Origin: a virus
Length of the DNA: 24,196 bases
Strand: one strand, 5' to 3'
Virus record (IMG/VR): IMGVR_UViG_3300042549_008168
Coordinates: 1-24,196 of that record
Shown: positions 5,909 to 18,242 of the stretch, one piece after another
Layout: the number at the start of each line of letters is the position of its first letter
How positions within the stretch are numbered: the stretch's first letter is position 1
Notes under the pieces: generated by a model
Told to the model about the DNA's origin: nothing
The model's database searches: none
The model's input: the letters and a program-made list of their open reading frames with translations, nothing else
Made by a program: the position numbers and the translations under genes

Positions 5909-6043
5909 ATGGCTGTAGCAGGACATAACTTAACAATGGATGAATTTCACCAGTACCTACAGAATGTAATAGACTCTGACTTAAATCTAAGACAAAAAGT
6001 AATAGCAGTAGAAAGGTATATAAAAAATATAACAGGTAGATGA
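5909..6043 (+). CDS. Unknown 44-aa protein between queD and queE
   Basis: ATG at 5909 follows the queD stop by 1 nt and the TGA stop overlaps the queE start in an ATGA junction, filling the gap exactly. The product is a short soluble helical peptide (FHQYLQNVIDSDLNLRQK) with a basic end. No family is recognised. The perfect packing is the main support. Confidence 0.5.
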   Translation: MAVAGHNLTMDEFHQYLQNVIDSDLNLRQKVIAVERYIKNITGR

Positions 6044-6813
6044 AAAGAATAGAAGACTATAACAAAACACTTCCAATTGTAGAGCTTTACACAGCAGTAC
6101 AATCAGAAGGAAGCAGAGCAGGTTATCCAACAGTAGTAATTAGAACAACAGGTTGTACTCACAGATGTTGGTTTGGTGAAGGTGGATGGTGTGATTCTTG
6201 GTACACAAGTATTCATCCTGAGAAAGGACATATTAGTTTCCAAGACATTATTAACATGTATGATGCAAATCCTCACATCACAGAGATGATGTTAACAGGA
6301 GGATCACCTACAATGCATCCAGCATTAGTAAACGAATTAACACATTTTGCACATGAAAGAAATATTTTCATTACAATTGAGACCGAAGGAAGTCATTTTC
6401 TTGAGACAGATTACCCAATTAATCTATTATCAATCTCCCCTAAGTTCAGTAATTCTGTCCCTAAGGTTGGCATTGCAACACCTCAAGGAGACATTACAGA
6501 TGAGAAAATGATTAAACAGCATAATAAGTTAAGACTTAATTATGATGCTATTTCAAAATCAATCTCATACCATTCTGACTATCACTTAAAACCAGTATGG
6601 GATGGTGAAGATCAAGAAGCATTAGCTGAAATTATGGGTTGCATTAAAATGTTAGATATACCTCAAGACAAAGTATGGTTTATGCCAGCTGGAGATACAA
6701 GAGAAGCTTTATTCAAATCATATCCAAAAATGTTTGATTGGGTTAGAGATAATGGTTATATATTAACTTGGAGACCTCACATTATTGCATTTGAAGATAA
6801 AAGAGAAGTATAA
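6040..6813 (+). CDS. queE: 7-carboxy-7-deazaguanine synthase, radical SAM (QueE)
   Basis: QueE rearranges 6-carboxy-tetrahydropterin to 7-carboxy-7-deazaguanine using S-adenosylmethionine and a 4Fe-4S cluster. The N-terminus has the family pattern VQSEGSRAGYPTVVIRTTGC, with cluster cysteines Cys39, Cys43 and Cys51. This is a CX3CX7C spacing instead of the usual CX3CX2C, with an insert FGEGGW before the CDSWYT segment. The SAM-binding stretch reads LTGGSPTMHP in place of TGGEP. ISPKFS lies near residue 145. At 257 aa it is in the upper range of the family. Lies between two small genes in the deazaguanine operon, four bases overlapping the upstream one. High confidence in the assignment. Confidence 0.93.
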   Translation: MKRIEDYNKTLPIVELYTAVQSEGSRAGYPTVVIRTTGCTHRCWFGEGGWCDSWYTSIHPEKGHISFQDIINMYDANPHITEMMLTGGSPTMHPALVNELTHFAHERNIFITIETEGSHFLETDYPINLLSISPKFSNSVPKVGIATPQGDITDEKMIKQHNKLRLNYDAISKSISYHSDYHLKPVWDGEDQEALAEIMGCIKMLDIPQDKVWFMPAGDTREALFKSYPKMFDWVRDNGYILTWRPHIIAFEDKREV

Positions 6814-7016
6814 TGGATTTAAAACATACTAACATATCTGAATTAGAAGTATTAAATACTTTATGGTGGATATGGTGCAATGAACATTTAAGTAAAGGAG
6901 TTATAAATCATATATTAGAAGATTTGGATCTCCAAATAGAGTTTATTACATTAGACGGATATAAAATTACAAATAAAGATAAAACAATTATTTATTCTTA
7001 TGACAGAAAACAATAG
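6813..7016 (+). CDS. Unknown small protein (67 aa) between queE and folE
   Basis: A small acidic protein with an N-terminal helix (ISELEVLNTLWWIW) and a short C-terminal beta hairpin (FITLDGYKITNKDKTIIYSY). No family is recognised. Its ATG overlaps the queE stop by one base and its 3' end overlaps folE by 17 nt, so it is locked into the operon. It might be an accessory peptide for one of its enzyme neighbours, but nothing in the sequence shows that. Confidence 0.5.
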   Translation: MDLKHTNISELEVLNTLWWIWCNEHLSKGVINHILEDLDLQIEFITLDGYKITNKDKTIIYSYDRKQ

Positions 7017-7698
7017 AAAAAAAATCCACAATGATTTAGAAGTGGTACAAGTTGGTTTTGCAAATGGGGTTGCACCTGGTTTCCCTTTAAATGATATTCA
7101 AAAACAACATATGATTGAAGACGCTGCAGAAGCGTATGGTCAATTCTTAACAGCATTAGGTTGTGATTGGAAAAATGATCCAAATAGTTCTGATACACCA
7201 AGACGTGTAGCTAAAGCCTATGTTAACGATTTATGGAAAGGTAGATATACACCAATGTCTGAAATTACTTCATTTCCATCAGACGGTTACGATGGTATTG
7301 TGATTGAAAGAAACATTCCATTAACTTCAATGTGTTCACATCATCACCAAACAATTGGAGGAGTAGTTCATATTGGTTATGTAGTAGGTGAAAATGGTAG
7401 AGTAATTGGTTTATCTAAACTAAATAGAATTGTAGAGCATTTTGGTCGTAGAGGTGCTATTCAAGAACAATTAACATCAGCTATTCATCAAGCAGTAGAT
7501 AAAATCTGTGAGAATAATAGAGGTGTAATTGTATCAGTAGTAGGTACTCACAATTGTGTTTCTTGTAGAGGAGTCAAACATCAAGGTGCATCAATGGTTA
7601 CAACTAAAGCATCAGGAGTGTTTATGGAAAATGATAATCAAGCTCGTAAAGAGTTCTTTGACTCAATTAAAATTAATAACGGTAATCATCCAGTATAA
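7000..7698 (+). CDS. folE: GTP cyclohydrolase I (FolE type)
   Basis: FolE converts GTP to 7,8-dihydroneopterin triphosphate, the first step of both folate and 7-deazaguanine synthesis. Motifs visible: DTPRRVAKAY (65-74), MCSHHHQTIGG (111-121) with zinc Cys112 and catalytic His114/His115, VIGLSKLNRIVE (135-146), and THNCVSCRGVKHQGAS (183-198) with zinc Cys186. The usual Glu of CEHH is Ser113 here. The 232 aa match the usual length. In context it feeds queD and queE upstream; a folate role is less likely because no other folate gene is near. The start overlaps the preceding gene; the stop overlaps the next start. Confidence 0.95.
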   Translation: MTENNRKKIHNDLEVVQVGFANGVAPGFPLNDIQKQHMIEDAAEAYGQFLTALGCDWKNDPNSSDTPRRVAKAYVNDLWKGRYTPMSEITSFPSDGYDGIVIERNIPLTSMCSHHHQTIGGVVHIGYVVGENGRVIGLSKLNRIVEHFGRRGAIQEQLTSAIHQAVDKICENNRGVIVSVVGTHNCVSCRGVKHQGASMVTTKASGVFMENDNQARKEFFDSIKINNGNHPV

Positions 7699-8951: not shown

Positions 8952-10145
8952 ATGGAAAATACTAAAAACAAAATTTTCCCTTATATTATAGCACTAACTG
9001 CTTTGTCGGTTAGTGCTTCTGCTGCGTTTTACTCTGTCACTGGATTGAGTAAATTATTCGCGGGGGCATCTACACAAGTGATGATAATGGCGGGAAGTTT
9101 AGAAGTAGCTAAATTAGTGATAGCTTCTTTATTATATCAATATTGGGATACACTTAATAAGACTTTACGTGCTTATTTAATGGGTGCTACTATAGTATTA
9201 ATATTAATAACATCTATGGGTATTTACGGGTATCTATCAGCTGCCTACCAAACAACAGCTTCTCAAGCTGGTAATGCTGAAGCCCAAGTAACCCTACTTG
9301 AAACTAAAAAGCAAAACTTTGTACAACAAAGAGATTTATACAACACTGAAAAAACAAATTTAGTACAAGGTATTACTCAGTTACAGTCAGGTTTAGCTAA
9401 TAATAAAACCTCATATGTTGATAAAAGAGGTAATCTAATACAATCAACAAGTAACTCTAATAGAAAATCATTTGAAAAACAATTAGATAACTCCACATTG
9501 AGACAATCGGAAATTTCAGCTAAATTAGACGTTATTAACGACTCGATATTCAAATTGGACACTCAGATTGTAGAAGCAAGAACCACCAATAACTCCGCTG
9601 GTGAATTAGGTCCACTAAAATACCTAAGTAATTTAACAGGAGTTGCAATGGATAGAATTATAAATTGGCTATTACTAGTTATAATATTTGTATTTGATCC
9701 ATTAGCAATTGCTTTAGTGATCGCGGCTAACTTTGCTTTTGCTAGATTAAGAAAACCTGATGTGCTAGAGACATTTAAAGAAAATGTTGAAAGAATTGAA
9801 AATGATTTAGATTGGGAATTGCTAGTTAATGAAGGATTAGACAATGAACCATGGTATGATGAGGAAGCAGAACATAGAATGGATATTATAGGTCAAAATG
9901 GAAATGAAGGAGAACATTATGAAAATGAATTGGCTTCCCAACAAGAATTTGATATATTAGATCTAAATAAAGATGGAGTTGTTGATGATGAAGAAAGATT
10001 AATAGCTGAAAATAAAATCGCAATTATTGAAAACGAATTGCAAAACACTTCTATGTCAGGGTGGAGAGCTAATAAAATGAGACAAGAAGCTGAAGAGTTA
10101 AGACAAAAAATAACTAAAGACGATAATATTATAGATTACAACTAA
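8952..10145 (+). CDS. Multi-pass membrane protein with coiled coil and EF-hand
   Basis: Domain order is clear although the function is not. Three hydrophobic helices lie at about 10-36, 42-62 and 72-97. A long coiled-coil region follows (about 105-215, Gln/Leu/Lys-rich). A fourth hydrophobic segment at 235-265 contains an Asp-Pro. The acidic C-terminal region contains an EF-hand calcium loop, D337-x-N339-x-D341-G-x-x-D345-x-x-E348, and ends in a charged helix. If helices 1-3 and 4 cross the membrane, the coiled coil and the C-terminus lie on opposite sides. Similar large membrane/coiled-coil proteins occur in other large phages without assigned role. The gene lies just upstream of the polymerase. 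Confidence 0.65.
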   Translation: MENTKNKIFPYIIALTALSVSASAAFYSVTGLSKLFAGASTQVMIMAGSLEVAKLVIASLLYQYWDTLNKTLRAYLMGATIVLILITSMGIYGYLSAAYQTTASQAGNAEAQVTLLETKKQNFVQQRDLYNTEKTNLVQGITQLQSGLANNKTSYVDKRGNLIQSTSNSNRKSFEKQLDNSTLRQSEISAKLDVINDSIFKLDTQIVEARTTNNSAGELGPLKYLSNLTGVAMDRIINWLLLVIIFVFDPLAIALVIAANFAFARLRKPDVLETFKENVERIENDLDWELLVNEGLDNEPWYDEEAEHRMDIIGQNGNEGEHYENELASQQEFDILDLNKDGVVDDEERLIAENKIAIIENELQNTSMSGWRANKMRQEAEELRQKITKDDNIIDYN

Positions 10146-10158
10146 TAAAAGGTTATAA

Positions 10159-11892
10159 ATGAGTTATAAAAACATTGTTACCCAAACATTGGGTAAAAAT
10201 AGACATGCTGTTACTTTATGGACTGATGATGGAGTAGAACAGTATGAATTTCAGAATTACGCTTATGAAAAATGCTATGAAAAAGATGCTACTCATTTAG
10301 GTCTAAAAGGAGAACCACTACGTAAAGTAACGTATTGGGAAGCAACAAATCCATTTATCCATTATCATGATATGCCGGTTCATCAAAAATTCCTAATTGA
10401 CAAATATGGAATTAATGATGAACCTTCAACTACTCACCAAGAAATATTTTTTGATATTGAGATTGAAATGGGTGGTGCTTTAACTCCTGATTACATTAGA
10501 AGAGCACCTAAGCCTGTTACATCAATTGCTTGGTGGCACCGTCAACATGACAAATGGTATATTTTAATTTTAGATAAACAAGGTAAAATAGAAAAAACTA
10601 CTAATGGTAATAAACAAATTATACCTTGTTCTAATGAAAGAGATTTATTAACTAAATGGTTAAATTATTTAGGTAAAGTTCAACCTGACATACTAATTGG
10701 TTATAACAGTGATTACTTCGATATACCTTATCTATACTATAGAATTTTAAATCAGTTAGGTGAGCGTAGAGCAAATGATTTATCTCCTATAGGTAAAGTT
10801 AAAATACAAAAATTTACTAATAGAGAAACAGGTGTAGACATCTATAATGAAGATCAACCAGTTAGAATTGAAGGAATGTATTCACTTGATTATATCAGGT
10901 TACATAAAAAATATTCAATGTCTGATGAACCATCTTATAAATTAGATGCTTTAGGTGAAAAATATTGTAAGTTAGGTAAAATTGAATATAATGGTAGTTT
11001 AGATAGATTGTTTATTGATGATATAGATAAATTTATTGAGTATAACTTTCGAGATGTTGAAATCTTAAAAGCATTAGATAATAAATTCAATTATATTGGA
11101 TTAACAAAAAACTTAGCACATAAAGGTAAAATTCACTATGATGATGTTTACCAATCTTCAAAAATACATGATGGCGCTATTTCAGCTTATCTATTATCTG
11201 AAAATATAGTACCTCCATCAAGAGATAGAAATCCAATTAAGAAAGCTAATTACGCAGGTGGTTATTTATTCTGTCCTAAAGCAGGTCTATATAGATACAT
11301 GTTTGATGAGGATTTAACATCACTATATCCTTCAATTATTATGTCTCTTAATATTGGTAAAGAAACATTAATAGGTAGAATTATAGATCCTAATGACAGA
11401 AACAATAGATTGGGATTAAATGATTTATTAAATGATGTTGATGATAAACCACGAGTTACAGAATGGTTTGTTAACCAACAAAAATTCAATAGAATAGAAT
11501 GGACTAGTTCAAAATTAGCTAAACTACTTCAACAATATAATTTGGCTATCTCAGCAAATGGTGTTATATTCCGCAATGATGAGCCTTCAGTATTATCAAC
11601 GATTTTATCTAAATGGTTTGATGAAAGGGTATTGTATAAAAATAAAATGAAAGACGCTTATAAGGCAGGTGATAAAGTAGCAGGTGAAAAATATCATTTG
11701 ATGCAGTACACAATGAAAATTCTATTAAACAGTTTATATGGCGCCACAGCATTACCTTCATTTAGATACGGGAATGTTATATTATCAGAAGCCATCACTT
11801 TATCAGGACAAAGAATTATTCAAGAATCAGCACTTTGTGCTAATAGACATATGAATAAAGTTATTAGAAACGAAATTAAATTAGAGATATAA
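10159..11892 (+). CDS. 43A: DNA polymerase gp43, N-terminal part (exonuclease, palm A, fingers)
   Basis: First part of a T4-like family B replicative polymerase. The 3'-5' exonuclease motifs are FFDIE (Asp99, Glu101), GYNSDYFDIPY (Asp188) and YNFRDVEIL (Asp299). The polymerase motif A is DEDLTSLYPSII (Asp385), and the fingers motif B is KILLNSLYGA (Lys520, Asn524). The frame then stops after IKLEI, before motif C. The missing motif C and thumb are encoded by the gene at 12157. Together the parts are 888 aa, close to the 898 aa of T4 gp43, so nothing essential is lost. No intein sequence is seen at the break. The stop overlaps the start of an unknown 87-aa gene. The gene lies 13 nt after the membrane gene. 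Confidence 0.95.
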   Translation: MSYKNIVTQTLGKNRHAVTLWTDDGVEQYEFQNYAYEKCYEKDATHLGLKGEPLRKVTYWEATNPFIHYHDMPVHQKFLIDKYGINDEPSTTHQEIFFDIEIEMGGALTPDYIRRAPKPVTSIAWWHRQHDKWYILILDKQGKIEKTTNGNKQIIPCSNERDLLTKWLNYLGKVQPDILIGYNSDYFDIPYLYYRILNQLGERRANDLSPIGKVKIQKFTNRETGVDIYNEDQPVRIEGMYSLDYIRLHKKYSMSDEPSYKLDALGEKYCKLGKIEYNGSLDRLFIDDIDKFIEYNFRDVEILKALDNKFNYIGLTKNLAHKGKIHYDDVYQSSKIHDGAISAYLLSENIVPPSRDRNPIKKANYAGGYLFCPKAGLYRYMFDEDLTSLYPSIIMSLNIGKETLIGRIIDPNDRNNRLGLNDLLNDVDDKPRVTEWFVNQQKFNRIEWTSSKLAKLLQQYNLAISANGVIFRNDEPSVLSTILSKWFDERVLYKNKMKDAYKAGDKVAGEKYHLMQYTMKILLNSLYGATALPSFRYGNVILSEAITLSGQRIIQESALCANRHMNKVIRNEIKLEI

Positions 11893-12155
11893 TGGCATTA
11901 AAAGGACAATCAATTAGAAACGGAGTTACTATTACAGTAAACGGAGTTAAAGCTGAAAAGCAATTAGTTATTAAATTATCTGAAAGTTGGGATGAATCAC
12001 AAGAGAAATTCTTTAAAAAGATGCTTAAACAAGGAGGTAAATGTAAAGTGAATGGAAATTCATTTGAAATATTACTTAAAGAAAGAAATGATATAGATTC
12101 AAAAGGAAATAGACCAGTTAATTTACCTCCAGTACCAGGAGAAAGAACATTTTAA
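11892..12155 (+). CDS. Unknown 87-aa protein between the two polymerase parts
   Basis: This basic protein occupies the position where split T4-like polymerases elsewhere carry a homing endonuclease. It has no GIY-YIG, HNH or LAGLIDADG motif. The visible features are a small beta-rich start (NGVTITVNGVKAEKQLVIKL), a helix (DESQEKFFKKMLKQGG), another strand pair, and a Pro-rich C-terminus (VNLPPVPGERTF). Its ATG overlaps the stop of the upstream polymerase part (TAATG), and its stop lies 1 nt before the downstream part, so all three are co-translated. Function is not recognised; a helper of polymerase assembly is only a guess. Confidence 0.6.
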   Translation: MALKGQSIRNGVTITVNGVKAEKQLVIKLSESWDESQEKFFKKMLKQGGKCKVNGNSFEILLKERNDIDSKGNRPVNLPPVPGERTF

Positions 12156-12156
12156 T

Positions 12157-13092
12157 ATGAAGCATTTAGAAGATACTCCATGGTGGATTTGTGATGAAGG
12201 TGACTTCAACTTCTGCGCCTATGTGGATACTGACTCTAATTACTTTAATGCTGAACCTCTATTAAAATTTTTATATCCCAACTTTGAAGAGTTTAATGAC
12301 CAAGAAAAAGATGATATCTTAGAAAAAGTAGCTTTAAAATATGAAGGTATTATTACTAAACATTATGATGAATTAGCAAGAGAATGTTTTAATGTACCTA
12401 CACATAGATTAGAAATGAAAACTGAATGTGTTATTCGTTCAGCTTATTTTAGAGCTACTAGACGATATGCTCAGTGGATCACGAAACAAGAAGGTAGAGC
12501 AAATGAGATACTAGATATTAAAGGTTTAGAATTTAAGAAAGCTAATTTTCCTAAATACTTTGGTAAATTTTATCAAGAGATATTAGAGTTAATTATTAAA
12601 GGTACTCCACAAGCTATAATTGATAAGAAAATACAAGACTTTAGAAACGAATCAACAGGTAAAGATGTAGACTTTACATTAATTGGTAATCCAACATCAG
12701 TTAAGGTATTAAATGATTATGTTGAAGCAGTTCCTAGACCCGGTAAAATATTATCTACACTTAAAAAAGGTGCTGGTGCAAATGTTAAAGCTGCCACTTG
12801 TTATAATGACTTATTAAGATTCTGGCAGTTAGATAAAGATTATAGTCAAATTGTGCAAGGTGATAAAATTAAATGGGTTTATTTAAAATCAAATCCATAT
12901 CAAATGGAAGCTATAGCTTTCCTAGAATTTGATATGCCTGATAAAATTAAAGATTTTATTAATGAGTATATTGATAGAGAAAAAAGTTTTGAAACTATAT
13001 TACAAAATAAATTACAAGGGTTCTATGATGATTTAGAGTGGGTATTACCACCATCAAATCCTTTAATAAATAAATTCTTCACATTCAATTAA
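12157..13092 (+). CDS. 43B: DNA polymerase gp43, C-terminal part (palm C, thumb)
   Basis: Second part of the T4-like polymerase. Motif C, AYVDTDSNYF (Asp24 and Asp26), supplies the remaining metal-binding aspartates that must join Asp385 of the first part. Next is the HRLEMKTECVIRSAYF stretch and KKANFPKYF, matching the palm-thumb region of T4 gp43. The C-terminus, NKFFTFN, resembles the clamp-binding tail (LDFLFG in T4). The two products must associate to give one enzyme. The gene lies 1 nt after the 87-aa gene and 1 nt before the clamp gene. About 20 residues precede motif C, so the break is between the fingers and the catalytic palm hairpin. Confidence 0.93.
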   Translation: MKHLEDTPWWICDEGDFNFCAYVDTDSNYFNAEPLLKFLYPNFEEFNDQEKDDILEKVALKYEGIITKHYDELARECFNVPTHRLEMKTECVIRSAYFRATRRYAQWITKQEGRANEILDIKGLEFKKANFPKYFGKFYQEILELIIKGTPQAIIDKKIQDFRNESTGKDVDFTLIGNPTSVKVLNDYVEAVPRPGKILSTLKKGAGANVKAATCYNDLLRFWQLDKDYSQIVQGDKIKWVYLKSNPYQMEAIAFLEFDMPDKIKDFINEYIDREKSFETILQNKLQGFYDDLEWVLPPSNPLINKFFTFN

Positions 13093-13093
13093 A

Positions 13094-13816
13094 ATGGAAA
13101 AAAAGTTATTAATACAATTAATCGAAAGTTTTTACCTTAATGGTTTAGCTACTCAAGTTAAATTTAAAGTTAAAGATAATGAAGCTCACATTAAATTTGC
13201 AACTGACAATAAAGACTGTATTGGTGAAATAAAAGCACCTGTGCAATTAGAAGATTGTGAGATTGGTATTTTTAATACAGCTCAATTACTAAAATTACTT
13301 AATATTACAAATGAGTATATTGAGTTAAAATTAGAAAAACAAGGTAATCATTTTCTAAAACTTCACATTAGTGATAATCAATTTGATTTATCATACAATT
13401 TAAGTGATTTAGGGTTAATTCAGGATCCAGGTGTAGTACCAAATTTACCTCCATATGATTTAGAATTTGATATTAATTTTGATTTTACTCAAAAATATAT
13501 TAAAGCACATAACGCTTTAGATAAACCACCTCGTTTTGAAATAGGTGTAACTAAAGATTTTCAAGGTGAGGAGGTAGTTAACTTTATGGTAGGTGAAAAA
13601 TCAACATATTCTAATAAAGTAACATTTACTGAAGCTGGAACTGTTATAAACCAAGTAAAACCTGTATCATTTAGTGCCGCTAATTTTAGAGAAATAGTTT
13701 CTGTAGCTAAAAGTGCTAATGGTAAGGCTTATCTATTTAAAGATGGTTTATTGAAAATCAATTTAGAAGAAGAAGGAGTAATATCTGAATATTTTTTAGT
13801 GGCTTTACATGAGTAG
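13094..13816 (+). CDS. 45: DNA polymerase sliding clamp (gp45-like)
   Basis: A 240-aa protein of the T4 gp45 type, which forms a trimeric ring around DNA and tethers the polymerase. The features match: an N-terminal LLIQLIESFYLNG helix, the central IGIFNTAQLLKLLNI (57-71, a helix lining the ring), an acidic strand DLSYNLSDLGLI, and a C-terminal strand pair KAYLFKDGLLKINL with YFLVALHE. T4 gp45 is 228 aa. Its place directly after the polymerase supports the call. Unlike in T4, the clamp-loader genes do not follow directly; a chaperone cluster lies between. In T4 the clamp also activates late transcription; whether this one does is unknown. Confidence 0.9.
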   Translation: MEKKLLIQLIESFYLNGLATQVKFKVKDNEAHIKFATDNKDCIGEIKAPVQLEDCEIGIFNTAQLLKLLNITNEYIELKLEKQGNHFLKLHISDNQFDLSYNLSDLGLIQDPGVVPNLPPYDLEFDINFDFTQKYIKAHNALDKPPRFEIGVTKDFQGEEVVNFMVGEKSTYSNKVTFTEAGTVINQVKPVSFSAANFREIVSVAKSANGKAYLFKDGLLKINLEEEGVISEYFLVALHE

Positions 13817-13909
13817 TAATATTTATGACAAATCGACTCTAGGGCGAGATCAATCAGTTGTATAAAAAATTATTAACGCGATCTTAGGACGCACAAAATG
13901 TAAATCATT
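13817..13909 (+). other. Leader region of hsp20
   Basis: This 93-nt gap is less AT-rich than most. It contains AATATTTATGACAAA (13818-13832), resembling ATATTTATGATAA at 5266, but without TTTG at the usual distance. AGATC (13846-13850) and GATCT (13881-13885) can pair across an A-rich loop. It could be a structured leader for the heat-shock gene; the evidence is weak. Confidence 0.25.
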
Positions 13910-14323
13910 ATGAGTACACAATTCAATGAATGGGACATCCTATTCCACAATTTCTTCTTTCCGTCAAGCGGATTCGGCTCAGCCGCCACAACAAAACAAC
14001 CACACCCACTTAACATTTATTATGACGAAACAGGCCTTCACTTTGAAGTAGCATGTACTGGTCTTACTAAAAATGATGTTAAATTAGATATCGAAGATGA
14101 TATCTTAAAAATTAGTTATGACAAACCAGATGAAGCTATTGATAAACAAATTCCTCCTGGAACAATCCATAGAGGGTTATCTAAAAAATCCTTCAATTTA
14201 GGTTACAAAATTTCCAGTAAATATGATTTAAGTAAAACTGATGGTAAACTAGAAAATGGTTTGCTTGAAATCTTTATTCCTATTACTGAAAAAGCTAAAC
14301 CGAAAACACTTAAAATTAAATAA
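13910..14323 (+). CDS. hsp20: Small heat-shock protein (Hsp20/alpha-crystallin)
   Basis: ATP-independent holdase that binds unfolding proteins. The alpha-crystallin domain spans about residues 37-125: YYDETGLHFEVACTGL, NDVKLDIEDDILKISYDK, then the RGLSKKSFNLGYKI hairpin and GKLENGLLEIFIPI, which matches the LxNGxLxIxIP signature. The tail PKTLKIK is the family's C-terminal I/L-x-I/L oligomer-contact motif. The 36-residue N-terminus is rich in Phe and Ser (FHNFFFPSSGFGSA), as usual. The first 100 bases use more C-ending codons than neighbouring genes. The gene starts a chaperone cluster with groES and groEL and is followed by a hairpin. Phage copies of hsp20 are known from marine T4-like phages. 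Confidence 0.93.
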   Translation: MSTQFNEWDILFHNFFFPSSGFGSAATTKQPHPLNIYYDETGLHFEVACTGLTKNDVKLDIEDDILKISYDKPDEAIDKQIPPGTIHRGLSKKSFNLGYKISSKYDLSKTDGKLENGLLEIFIPITEKAKPKTLKIK

Positions 14324-14361
14324 AAACTCTCGCCCAAGAGTTTGGTTATCGGTTTATTTTT
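14324..14361 (+). terminator. Hairpin terminator after hsp20
   Basis: AAACTCT (14324-14330), a 6-nt loop, then AGAGTTT (14337-14343) follow the hsp20 stop directly. An alternative outer stem AAACCGA (14297-14303) with TCGGTTT (14349-14355) ends in ATTTTT. Either could stop transcription, though the T-run is short. The right arm overlaps the TTTG of the next promoter-like signal. Confidence 0.6.
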
Positions 14362-14370
14362 ACGTATATT
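14341..14370 (+). promoter_or_regulatory. Promoter candidate TTTG-N20-TATATT
   Basis: TTTG at 14341-14344 and TATATT at 14365-14370 with a 20-nt spacer; TATATT starts 26 nt before ATG 14391. The last bases before the start, AATAAGTTAT, are the same as before gene 44 at 16674, where TATATT is also at 26 nt. Confidence 0.55.
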
Positions 14371-14390
14371 ATATAAAACAAATAAGTTAT

Positions 14391-14693
14391 ATGGCAAATC
14401 CAAATTTTAAAGGTAGACAAAAAGGGTCTATCAAAAAGACATCAACTATTTCTGATCCACTTTTAGGTGATTATAAAATAGTGTTTGATGACAGTAGTTA
14501 TAATTTAATTTTCACTGAACCTGACACTCAGAAAGAAAAGGTAATAGGGTATTACTCTCAATTACCTAGTGCGTTAAGACGTATAGCTAAAGAGCAGGTT
14601 TTAGAGAAACAAACAACTTATACTCTAAGAGAGTATCTTACAGAATTAGAATCAACAATAACACAATTAAAAACTTTAATGAACTATGAGTAA
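14391..14693 (+). CDS. Conserved phage protein of unknown function (100 aa)
   Basis: I do not know a function. ATG 14391 is chosen because it follows the promoter-like signal and AATAAGTTAT leader; in-frame upstream codons to 14256 lie inside hsp20 and the terminator. The N-terminus is basic (FKGRQKGSIKKT), like a disordered nucleic-acid-binding tail. It is followed by a beta unit (DYKIVFDDSSYNLIF), a SQLPSALRRIAKEQ helix and a C-terminal Leu-rich helix (LREYLTELESTITQLKTL). The 3' end overlaps groES by 8 nt, so it leads the groES-groEL transcript and may be a partner or simply a passenger. Confidence 0.6.
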   Translation: MANPNFKGRQKGSIKKTSTISDPLLGDYKIVFDDSSYNLIFTEPDTQKEKVIGYYSQLPSALRRIAKEQVLEKQTTYTLREYLTELESTITQLKTLMNYE

Positions 14694-14979
14694 ATTAGTA
14701 CCAAGAGAAGGTAGTATTATTTTAAAGCAAATTGAGACTAGTGAAACTACAGTAGGTAATATTATTATTCCTGATATGGGTGATGATAGATCACTTATAG
14801 CTGAAGTTGTAGCAGTATCTGACGTTTACAATTACCACAAAGGTGAATTCATCCCAACAGACTTAAAAGTAGGTATGAAAGTTACAATCCCACCAATGGG
14901 AGCACAAAAAATCAAAATTGATAATGTAGATTACCTTATCATGGCACAAAACAACATTCCAGCAATTATAGAAGATTAA
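14686..14979 (+). CDS. groES: Co-chaperonin GroES (Cpn10)
   Basis: GroES caps the GroEL folding chamber. The 97-aa product matches the family from end to end: LVPREGSIILKQIE at the start (usual P-x-x-DRV-x-V), a mobile-loop segment with TTVGNIIIPD (21-30), then AEVVAVSDVY, LKVGMKVTIPPMGAQKIKIDN and the final DYLIMAQNNIPAII. The mobile-loop hydrophobic triad reads Ile-Ile-Ile, as needed to bind GroEL. T4 uses a different, larger co-chaperone (gp31) to fold its capsid protein; here a bacterial-type GroES is present instead. It overlaps the upstream gene by 8 nt and lies 2 nt before groEL. Confidence 0.93.
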   Translation: MSKLVPREGSIILKQIETSETTVGNIIIPDMGDDRSLIAEVVAVSDVYNYHKGEFIPTDLKVGMKVTIPPMGAQKIKIDNVDYLIMAQNNIPAIIED

Positions 14980-14981
14980 TC

Positions 14982-16619
14982 ATGACAGAAACAGTATTCG
15001 GAACAGAATTAAAAGGTAAGTTATTAAAGGGTGTTGAGAAGCTAAACAATAGTGTGGCATCAACATTAGGTCCAGCTGGTAGAACAGTTTTAATTAAGGA
15101 CAATCAAGGTCAATTAACCATTACTAAAGATGGTGTATCAGTTGCTAAAGCATTTGGTGACTTAGAAGATCAAGTAGAATCAATTGGGGCACAAGCAGTG
15201 AAACAAGTATCTATCAAAACTGGTAATTTAGTGGGTGATGGTACAACTACTTCAACAGTTTTAGCTCATGCTATTCTAGAAGAAGGATTAAAACATGTAT
15301 CTGCAGGTCAAAATCCAGTTGAAATTAAAAAAGGGATTGATGCCGCTGTAGAGGAAATTAAATCTGCATTAGATAATTTAACAGAAGATATCTCGGATAA
15401 TCAACAAATAAAAGAAGTTGCTACTATATCTGGTAACAATGATGAGGAAGTGGGTAATTTAATTGCTACTGCTTTAGAAAAAGTGGGTAGAGATGGAATT
15501 GTAGCCATTGAACAATCAAAAACTGGAGAAACATCTTTAGAGATTGTTGAGGGTATGCAATTTGATAGAGGTTACAAATCACCTTATTTTGTAACTGATA
15601 ATAACACTATGAATGCGTTATTAGACAATCCATACATTTTAATTTACAATGGTAGAATTGGTAATGTAAATGAATTAGTAAATGTATTAACATTAGCTAA
15701 CTCAGAAACAAGAGCATTATTAATTGTAGCTGAGGATATTGACGGTGAAGCTTTAGCTTTAACAATTGTTAACAAAGCAAGAGGGGTTGTAAAAGTAGCA
15801 GCGGTAAAAGCTCCGGAATTTGGAGATAGAAGAACAATGGCTTTAGAAGACTTAGCTGTTATTACAGGTGGTCAAGTATTATCTAAAGACAAAGGTCATA
15901 AATTGGATAAAATTGATGTTGCTACCTTAAAACAAGTATTAGGTTCAGCTCGTTCAGCTATTGTAGGTAAAGATAAAACAACAATTGTTGATGGTAGAGG
16001 TGAAGAAGAAGCTATTAAGTTAAGAGCTGAAGAAATCAAAATTCAAATTGATAATGCTGGTTCACCATTTGAAAAAGAGAAATTACAAGAACGTTTAGGT
16101 AAACTAATCGGAGGAGTAGCTATTATTAATGTTGGTGGTAACAGTGAGTTAGAAATTAAAGAGAAAAAAGATAGAGTAGAAGATGCTTTATTTGCTACAA
16201 AAGCCGCTCTTGAAGAAGGAATTGTAATTGGTGGTGGTACAGCTTTAATGTACGCTAGAAAAGCAATTACATTTGAAGGTTCAAATGACTATGTAAACGG
16301 TAAAAAAATTGTTTATAGAGCAGCTGGAGCTCCATTCTCTAAGATTTTAACTAATGCTGGACATGATCTAGTAGAAGTTCAATATTTAGGTTCTCAATTA
16401 ACTGATTCAGAAAAAGGAAGCAATTGGGCAGGTCTTAATTATAAAGACTTATCAGTAATGGACTTTAAAGGAGCAGGTATTATTGATCCTAAAAAAGTAA
16501 CTAGAGTAGCATTAGAAAATGCAGCTTCAGTTGCAGGTACATTATTGACAACTGAGTCAGTAATTTATGAAAAAATTGAAGACAAAGAAGAATCAAATCC
16601 TATGCAAGGTATGATGTAA
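14982..16619 (+). CDS. groEL: Chaperonin GroEL (Cpn60)
   Basis: ATP-driven folding chamber of 14 subunits. At 545 aa it is full length (E. coli 548). Key parts are intact: [10 protein letters not shown], the ATP site [13 protein letters not shown] (Asp86), the apical domain with [34 protein letters not shown], the [18 protein letters not shown] segment with the catalytic Asp, and a C-terminus ending in NPMQGMM, a shortened version of the usual Gly-Met tail. Compared with bacterial GroEL, the C-terminal equatorial region ([19 protein letters not shown]) is less typical. A complete phage groEL-groES pair is uncommon. Likely use is folding of phage proteins such as capsid protein. The gene has phage-like codon use, so it is not a recent host copy. 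Confidence 0.96.
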
Positions 16620-16673: not shown

Positions 16674-17585
16674 ATGTTTAATAAAAAACACACTTTATTT
16701 ACTGAAAAATACAGACCTGATACATTAGAAGGTTACATTGGTAATGATGATTTTAAATCATCTCTACAACAATGGATTGACACTAATGATGTTCCTCACT
16801 TATTATTATGTGGAGGCGCTGGTACAGGTAAAACTACAGCCGCTAAATTAATTGTTAACAACATTAATTGTGACTACGTTTACATTAACTGTTCAGATGA
16901 AAATGGTATTGATACAATCAGAGATAAAGTAAAATCATTCGCTTCAGCAGCTAGTTTCAAACCTCAGAAAGTAGTGATAATGGATGAAGCTGATTTCTTA
17001 ACAATTAACGCTCAAGCAGCTCTACGTAATGTAATTGAGACATTCAGTTTAACAACTCGTTTTATCTTTACTTGCAACTATGTTGAACGTATTATTGATC
17101 CAATCCAATCTAGAACTGTTGTATTTGAGTTAACACCTCCATCAATGCATGATGTTGCTTTCAAATGTGTTGAGATTTTAGATTTAGAGGGTGTTACTTA
17201 TACTAAAGCTGATATAGTAAGAATTGTTAAACAAACTTATCCTGATATTAGAAAGACTTTAAATCTATTACAATCATCTATTAAAGATAATGATTTACAG
17301 CAAAGTAGAGAAGTAACTAATTTCAATCAAACATCAGATCAAATAATAACTTTACTTAAAGGTCAAAACATTAAAAACTTTACTACTATAAGACAACTAG
17401 TAATGGATTCAAATGTTAGAGATTATAATGAGTTATATAGAGTATTATTTGAACGAGCAGATGAATTTACTAATTCAGCTATAGCAACTCTTATTATAGC
17501 AGATTATCAATACAAATCAATCATGGCACCTGATAAAGAAATTACATTTTGCGGGTGTATAGCAAAATTATTAACAACTAAATAA
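16674..17585 (+). CDS. 44: Clamp-loader AAA+ ATPase (gp44-like)
   Basis: Large subunit of the clamp loader, which opens the gp45 ring using ATP. The 303 aa (T4 gp44 is 319) contain FTEKYRPDTLEGYIG at the start, Walker A GGAGTGKTT (47-55), Walker B VVIMDEAD (100-107), sensor-1 TCN (133-135) and the arginine-finger motif, SRT (146-148) where many family members have SRC. The sensor-2 region PDIRKTLNLLQ is also present. The C-terminal domain should form the collar. The gene starts a new transcript after groEL. The next genes are an unknown 80-aa protein and gp62, its usual partner. Confidence 0.95.
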   Translation: MFNKKHTLFTEKYRPDTLEGYIGNDDFKSSLQQWIDTNDVPHLLLCGGAGTGKTTAAKLIVNNINCDYVYINCSDENGIDTIRDKVKSFASAASFKPQKVVIMDEADFLTINAQAALRNVIETFSLTTRFIFTCNYVERIIDPIQSRTVVFELTPPSMHDVAFKCVEILDLEGVTYTKADIVRIVKQTYPDIRKTLNLLQSSIKDNDLQQSREVTNFNQTSDQIITLLKGQNIKNFTTIRQLVMDSNVRDYNELYRVLFERADEFTNSAIATLIIADYQYKSIMAPDKEITFCGCIAKLLTTK

Positions 17586-17593
17586 AAATCGCA

Positions 17594-17836
17594 ATGGACG
17601 AAATGCAACCACAAATGAATCTTGATTTAACTAAAACAACTCCAATTTTAACTGCTGCTGGTGGTAAAATTTGGCATCAAGGTTATATCTTGAGAAAAGT
17701 ATCTAAATTTGTAACTGGAACACCAGATGATAATGTTTTACCAATTCAGGTATTTTATGACCCAGAAACAGGTGAAATCTTAAAAGAAGGATTGCCAGCT
17801 GAATTATCATTTATTATTGAAGGTGACGAAGCTTAA
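17594..17836 (+). CDS. Unknown 80-aa protein between genes 44 and 62
   Basis: A small acidic protein, mainly beta: a hydrophilic start, GGKIWHQGYILRKVSKFV (24-41), a central IQVFYDPETGEILKEG hairpin (47-62) and an acidic end. The DPETGEIL hairpin is common in small phage proteins but diagnoses nothing. No family is recognised. It lies 8 nt after gene 44, and its last 20 bases overlap the start chosen for the gp62-like gene, so it is translationally coupled to the clamp loader. Confidence 0.55.
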   Translation: MDEMQPQMNLDLTKTTPILTAAGGKIWHQGYILRKVSKFVTGTPDDNVLPIQVFYDPETGEILKEGLPAELSFIIEGDEA

Positions 17837-18242
17837 AAGTATTTTTGATTGGGTGAAGCAAATATCATATGATAAAGAACCTTGGTCCTCATTTACTATT
17901 GAGGAACAAGATATGTTCAATAATTTTATGATAAATAAAATCATATCAATGAATCCAAACTACATTGAATTAGTAGCTGAGATTCAGGAGCACCAAATGC
18001 CTAAAGACAAATTATATCAATTCTATTGTCAAGCTTTACCTAAACAAAAGTTTTTTAACAAGTATCAAAAACCTTCAAAACAACAGTATAGTAAGGAAGT
18101 ATTAGGTTTATTAGCTGAATACTTCCAAGCTAGTACTAGAGAAGTTTTAGACTACTGTGATATTTTATCTAAACAAGATGTTATAGATATAATATTACAA
18201 TTAGGAAAGGATGACAAAGAAATTAAAAAATTATTAAAATGA
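17817..18242 (+). CDS. 62: Clamp-loader small subunit (gp62-like)
   Basis: Divergent homologue of T4 gp62, the single subunit that completes the gp44/62 clamp loader. Matching features: KSIFDWVKQIS near the start, a SSFTIEEQDMFNNFMINKIISMNP segment (24-47), YCQALPKQKFFNKYQKP (69-85) and a helical C-terminus with LAEYFQASTREVLDYC. T4 gp62 is 187 aa, this is 141 aa, about the size of the short versions in marine T4-like phages. The start is non-ATG: TTG 17817 or GTG 17823, both inside the preceding gene. Position after gene 44 strongly supports the call. The stop overlaps the next start by 4 nt. Confidence 0.8.
   Translation: MKVTKLKSIFDWVKQISYDKEPWSSFTIEEQDMFNNFMINKIISMNPNYIELVAEIQEHQMPKDKLYQFYCQALPKQKFFNKYQKPSKQQYSKEVLGLLAEYFQASTREVLDYCDILSKQDVIDIILQLGKDDKEIKKLLK

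Follow-up and report, generated by a model that had tools for sequence, protein, structure and literature searches.

We consider it very likely that the virus sequence analysed here (24,196 nucleotides, hereafter the window) encodes an old two-subunit replicative family B polymerase, the halves of which (A and B) would assemble non-covalently, and that the small gene lodged between them (S) is resident cargo. To our knowledge, a replicase with its active site divided between two proteins is rare, and the two-piece arrangement was known before in few microbes only. Among the viruses described below, the two-piece replicase is a standing, old and stable state of a large clade, and unsplit, insert-free and insert-bearing relatives exist side by side, which puts gene fission in an essential enzyme within direct reach of experiment. 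The arrangement raises the questions of how the halves meet, which of fission and endonuclease invasion came first, and whether accessory genes come to dock at a newly formed intergenic point. Annotators should also be warned that polymerases that look 'truncated' in these phages are to be read as complete enzymes.

Anatomy of the divided polymerase

The two halves lie where a preliminary description of the window had placed them, and their lengths do add up to 888 aa (577 + 311). Its division of the motifs is likewise borne out: Exo I (DIE99), Exo II (NSDYFD183), Exo III (YNFRDVE295), motif A (DLTSLYPS385) and motif B (NSLYG524) are all located in A, and motif C (DTDS24-27) and the thumb in B, with the catalytic aspartates all present across A and B. 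A matches the Pfam families DNA_pol_B_exo1 and DNA_pol_B and covers positions 14-569 of the 856 in the phrog_262 DNA polymerase profile (6e-111), and B carries on along this profile at 565-844 (5e-45); given these complementary spans, the halves add up to a complete T4-type polymerase in which nothing is duplicated or missing. In a sequence search, A matches the structures of the RB69 and T4 polymerases, and a phmmer search of the PDB with P0003 alone found no chain. The same replication cluster holds clamp loader genes, gp44-like (16674-17585; phrog_168, 6e-83) and gp62-like (17817-18242; phrog_225, 5e-19), and with Exo I-III, motifs A, B and C and these neighbours the pair is recognisable as a T4 gp43-type family B polymerase; A shares no more than about 35% identity with phage polymerases that are annotated. 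The 240-aa gene that follows B is without a family match and, going by its position, may be a sliding clamp (gp45-like). Coupling by TAATG had been proposed for all three genes; this holds for A and S, and not for S and B, which are separated by one nucleotide (TAA-T-ATG).

Elsewhere in the window (6040-7698 and 13910-16619), QueE-like, GTP cyclohydrolase I (FolE), Hsp20 and GroES/GroEL-like genes were recognised by sequence on this phage. Identity to a close relative (L001) drops suddenly at 13860-14400, right after the 240-aa gene, which suggests a recombination boundary or an indel before the Hsp20/GroES/GroEL block.

Table 1 Positions of features in the window and of interrupted motif C junctions in related loci
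Feature	Position	Strand	Remarks
A, polymerase N-part ('gp43A-like'), 577 aa	10159..11892	+	exonuclease domain, palm with motif A, fingers with motif B
Motif A, DLTSLYPS	11311..11334	+	from sequence
Motif B core, NSLYG	11728..11742	+	close to 3' end of A; from sequence
A/S stop/start overlap, TAATG	11890..11894	+	
S, 87-aa small protein	11892..12155	+	within the gap
TAATATG	12153..12159	+	S stop, 1-nt gap, B start; no overlap
B, polymerase C-part ('gp43B-like'), 311 aa	12157..13092	+	motif C, thumb, C-terminal tail
Motif C, DTDS	12226..12237	+	metal-binding aspartates, intact in one frame
240-aa gene, next in cluster	13094..13816	+	syntenic place beside polymerase
L160 motif C interruption	L160:7690-7762		ACG-TGACA-GAT
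L161 motif C interruption	L161:6860-6918		GAT-(hairpin with stop)-GAT-ACA-GAT
L164 motif C interruption	L164:7690-7753		ACC-TGAAGACC-GAC
L267 motif C interruption	L267:5930-6009		ACG-TAAATG-GAT
L320 motif C interruption	L320:750-832		ACG-TAACC-GAT
L330 motif C interruption	L330:5930-6009		GAT-TTCTAA-(hairpin)-ACA-GAT

Conservation and phylogeny of the split

Relatives were gathered by IMG/VR scans with A, S and B as queries, followed by tblastn on the fetched loci. We find the split in 90 distinct arrangements, about 50-99% identical to the window: 67 have S in the gap (too high a count, since S itself served as the query in one scan), 7 have other inserts, and 16 have none, the TGA stop of A lying within the ATGA that starts B. 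The expectation that relatives would share both break and insert thus holds for the break, the insert being optional and absent from the last 16. The B scan returned at least 532 confirmed relatives, possibly with fused ones among them, and the split group is probably much larger than the 90 arrangements. The clade consists mostly of marine and freshwater viruses; contigs of the split group are also present in Flavobacteriales and Flavobacteriaceae MAGs, which makes a flavobacterium the probable host.

L148, L150 and L176 are fused genes with a mis-set start and were counted as fused, and an apparent split (L174) is really a frameshift inside one gene and was set aside. Stand-alone N-parts, with no C-part in their contigs (up to 72 kb, incomplete), occur in L034, L035, L036 and L041, where the polymerase halves may lie far apart; in L035 and L041, a gene for a 926-aa protein and others were seen to come after A.

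A quick maximum likelihood tree was built from 73 representatives, and the 51 rows with a split polymerase fall on one side of one branch (support 80), with the fused L037 as sister to them and the L035 group, which has A alone, next. Support for this order is 47, and given such weak branching around L037, re-fusion is possible there: the tree could reflect a single split with re-fusion in L037, or more than one split. The difference between insert and no insert needs at least 7 changes on the tree. Purifying selection is strong on both halves (dN/dS of 0.05-0.18 for A and 0.06-0.14 for B), and their distances correlate at 0.84, compared with 0.97 in fused relatives, a shortfall that may be due to occasional reassortment or to alignment noise. 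With a break common to a varied clade whose members can be as little as about 50% identical, and with an unsplit sister, the earlier view of a fixed, old split polymerase is upheld.

Fused relatives and the site of the break

The polymerase is encoded in one continuous frame in Microcystis phage Mel-JY01, in L037, in the unsplit contigs behind L072, L077 and L090, and in most more distant loci. Mel-JY01, the closest annotated relative (34.6% identical to A and 36.7% to B), shares the gene order of the window, from the polymerase through the next gene to the gp44-like and gp62-like genes, yet its polymerase (848 aa), like that of L037 (851 aa), is one continuous gene. L037 is the closest fused relative (56% identical to A and 48% to B) and reads ...EMTIQMKNLEDVPEYIC..CDTDS in its single frame, with which the C-terminus of A (...NKVIRNEIKLEI) and the N-terminus of B (MKHLEDTPWWIC) are both colinear. 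Where L037 reads ...NREIGNKEMTIQMKNLEDVPEYICNGDEGNYVAYCDTDS, the split B proteins begin exactly at that Met (MKHLEDTPWWICD); that is, the B start codon is an internal Met in L037, between IQ and MKNLED, from which the B proteins align, and the beginning of B in the window corresponds to this internal MKNLED.

L037 and the split clade have in common a loop of about 20 additional residues, lying between motif C and the helix that follows motif B, which more distant fused polymerases lack. An AlphaFold model of the fused L037 protein, poor overall (pTM 0.39) and used for local secondary structure only, places a loop (521-547) between a helix (491-520) and a strand (548-551), with the break at residue 529 and a pLDDT under 50 at that point. 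Since the break falls in this predicted loop at an existing Met, the fission would appear to have hit a tolerant loop that offered a ready-made start codon.

The gap and the origin of the break

Gap length ranges from -4 to 2769 nt across the split arrangements, and insert content and length vary among relatives, both ends being constant. Apart from S, the inserts include Smr, DUF6165, mannose-6-phosphate isomerase, SET and FkbM methyltransferase/glycosyltransferase genes, homing endonucleases (HNH in L010 and L014, GIY-YIG in L092 and L226/L227), and a KdsA/DAHP-like synthase with a transaldolase and a HAD-like protein. These last three were observed as a block between the halves in L101 (2847-4599), L104, L110 and L112-L114. 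Insertions are also found at the junction between the polymerase and the next gene (L020, L070, L250 and L252), so that the A/B junction behaves as an ordinary intergenic point. S is an optional insert, and no part of the split itself.

A frameshift would be the simplest origin of the break, with endonuclease insertion as its main rival. An ancestral single gene would have been cut in the loop that follows the long helix behind motif B and leads into the strand of motif C. The cut would lie at an in-frame ATG-AAR already present there, one frameshift immediately ahead of it placing the stop of A (TGA) and the start of B (ATG) in one ATGA, a state that the 16 insert-free arrangements still show. 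The two cistrons would then have provided a new intergenic point permissive for insertions, open to newcomers such as S, Smr, DUF6165, KdsA/transaldolase, glycosyltransferases and, in some relatives, homing endonucleases, with S as the resident in the window.

Alternatively, a homing endonuclease may have invaded and split the fused gene, and later have been lost or replaced, an origin that would be compatible with two subunits and that we regard as unlikely on balance, though far from negligible. Endonucleases do lie exactly in the gap in the few relatives named above, L160-type relatives (discussed below) carry them at a near-identical break, and precedents exist in T4 gene 60 and Aeromonas phage 25 (PMC2988022, PMC5009743). 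However, gap endonucleases are rare, belong to different families and are nested in the tree within already split lineages, a pattern in keeping with their having invaded a gap that was already there. Family searches of the window matched neither an intein nor a homing endonuclease in the gap, in agreement with the preliminary description; endonucleases at this break are confined to those few relatives.

The S protein

The S proteins form a conserved small family (QSIR ... KMLKQGGKFKI), and the predicted model of S is of modest quality (pLDDT 72). S has no match in Pfam, PHROG, NCBIfam or PADLOC and no fold match in PDB or BFVD; the candidacies of an endonuclease, a defence gene or a known fold were dropped for want of such matches, and a weak Pfam match to Tox-HNH-HHH (E 0.16) was disregarded.

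That S is a dedicated third subunit, a splint holding the halves together, seems to us improbable. Its place in the gap of 67 of the 90 arrangements is kept over large divergence, and clade-wide its distances follow those of A about as well as do those of equal-length pieces of B (correlation of 0.55, against a mean of 0.62 and a 5% quantile of 0.51), which would make S a long-term resident, though probably not one tied to the halves. Yet the 16 insert-free and 7 S-less splits exist, and S is also found apart from the polymerase (L020, L072, L073, L077, L085, L086 and L090): L020 has a split without insert and S elsewhere in its genome, and L072, L077 and L090 carry S although their polymerases are fused. 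Moreover, the window and L001 are 96-98% identical in the flanks of S and 79% in S itself, the differences lying within 11921-12103 and most of them within 11936-12103; judged from these sequences, the S allele has been swapped by recombination between near-identical phages. The dN/dS of S (0.13-0.44) is also higher than that of the halves. Our own reading is that S is cargo, probably with a function of its own as an early host- or defence-related factor and not as a polymerase subunit.

Positions 8952-10145 of the window encode a 397-aa protein that is membrane-like and matches EF-hand weakly. In loci with S off the polymerase, relatives of this protein (L073:5268-6248; L077:6989-7996) were seen beside S or close to it.

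Probable assembly of the two halves

Translated from one cluster, A (exonuclease, palm motif A and fingers) and B (motif C, thumb and C-terminus) would fold with each other, without a covalent link, to give a single active enzyme that has the full set of catalytic residues, most likely by analogy with gp43A/B of Aeromonas phage 25, which co-purify and are active as a polymerase (PMC2988022). The Aeromonas genes resemble those of the window in that a T4-type family B replicase is encoded by two adjacent cistrons covering one polymerase, whereas they have a different insert and belong to an independent lineage. The preliminary description had cited a split gp43 with an endonuclease at the break in Aeromonas phages, which is correct for phage 25 and not for 44RR, where there is none (PMC2988022), and the Aeromonas break lies before motif B, in contrast to that of the window between motifs B and C. 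In 44RR, motifs B and C are both in 43B, whose start lies about 48 residues ahead of the NSLYG. A family B polymerase made from two polypeptides, as in the window, is also found in Methanothermobacter thermautotrophicus, there as an archaeal cellular enzyme. Its PolB genes are unlinked, and the break is near motif C. This split PolB was isolated as a working enzyme, according to Kelman et al. (1999, JBC) as relayed in PMC3984812 and PMC7776575.

It appears very improbable that the halves are instead joined into one chain by RNA splicing, protein trans-splicing or ribosomal recoding, although phages with introns in gene 43 or with split inteins have been described (PMC2993671) and recoding-like motif C inserts occur in the related L160-type group. 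Split-intein fractured genes are similar to the window in that a phage replication gene comes as two separate parts, between which an endonuclease may lie, but the end of A and the start of B in the window clade carry no intein fragment. No Rfam intron was detected in the window or in 11 related loci, which answers the earlier caution about a spliced RNA intron, and there is no RNA structure at the window junction (z 0.83). In addition, A has its own stop inside the start ATGA of B in the insert-free state, and a variable insert between fixed ends argues against joining. Finally, an assembly error, also raised earlier, or a decaying pseudogene can be set aside almost entirely, the same break being present in 90 distinct arrangements from many samples, with low dN/dS and intact motifs.

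A related group with an interrupted motif C

L160, L161, L164, L267, L297 and L330 likewise have a polymerase divided ahead of motif C; in these, A ends in a tail of ~42 aa that is Hint-like by eye and the second cistron begins with an MKIKKI-like sequence. The tail was seen to resemble the second half of an N-intein, without the catalytic Cys, and tail and start may be a docking module derived from an intein. In L160 the gap contains a GIY-YIG type endonuclease, and L164 and L297 have ORFs resembling Vsr/EDxHD endonucleases, for which no Pfam family was matched.

In L160, L161, L164, L267, L320 (for which no A part was seen) and L330, the codons of motif C (Y-x-D-T-D-S) are broken by short stop-bearing inserts (Table 1), mostly out of frame and beside strong hairpins, the flanking codons being matched or near-matched in several. 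When folding is compared with shuffles, five of the six interrupted junctions give z scores of -3.4 to -7.3 and L330 one of -2.0, against -1.6 to 0.3 in intact relatives, and the L267 and L330 junctions were found again in separate assemblies. No ATG, GTG or TTG start lies between the stop and motif C in L164, L320 and L161; a GTG or ATG does in L160, L267 and L330, where plain re-initiation is consequently an alternative. In T4 gene 60, a stop lies just 3' of the take-off codon, a stem-loop is present on the 5' side and an endonuclease is encoded next door (PMC5009743), and the interrupted junctions are similar in their stop-bearing inserts with hairpins. As a lead from sequence comparison, these junctions are candidate ribosomal bypass sites of the kind seen in T4 gene 60, and they could lengthen a very short list of such sites.

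Tentatively, the motif B-C loop might be a point of repeated replicase fission with several solutions: two plain subunits in the window clade and, in L160, L161, L164, L267, L320 and L330, a near-identical split with a Hint-like A tail, plus a T4 gene 60-like bypass that would restore motif C, amounting to a new family of programmed bypass sites in the polymerase active site, tied to homing endonucleases. We offer this broader picture as a conjecture that may well prove wrong.

A split before motif C was also observed in L118 (LR756508.1 255000-272000), from a 484-kb phage, with four genes between the parts and an intein in each of them, located in motif B for the N-part and in motif C for the C-part.
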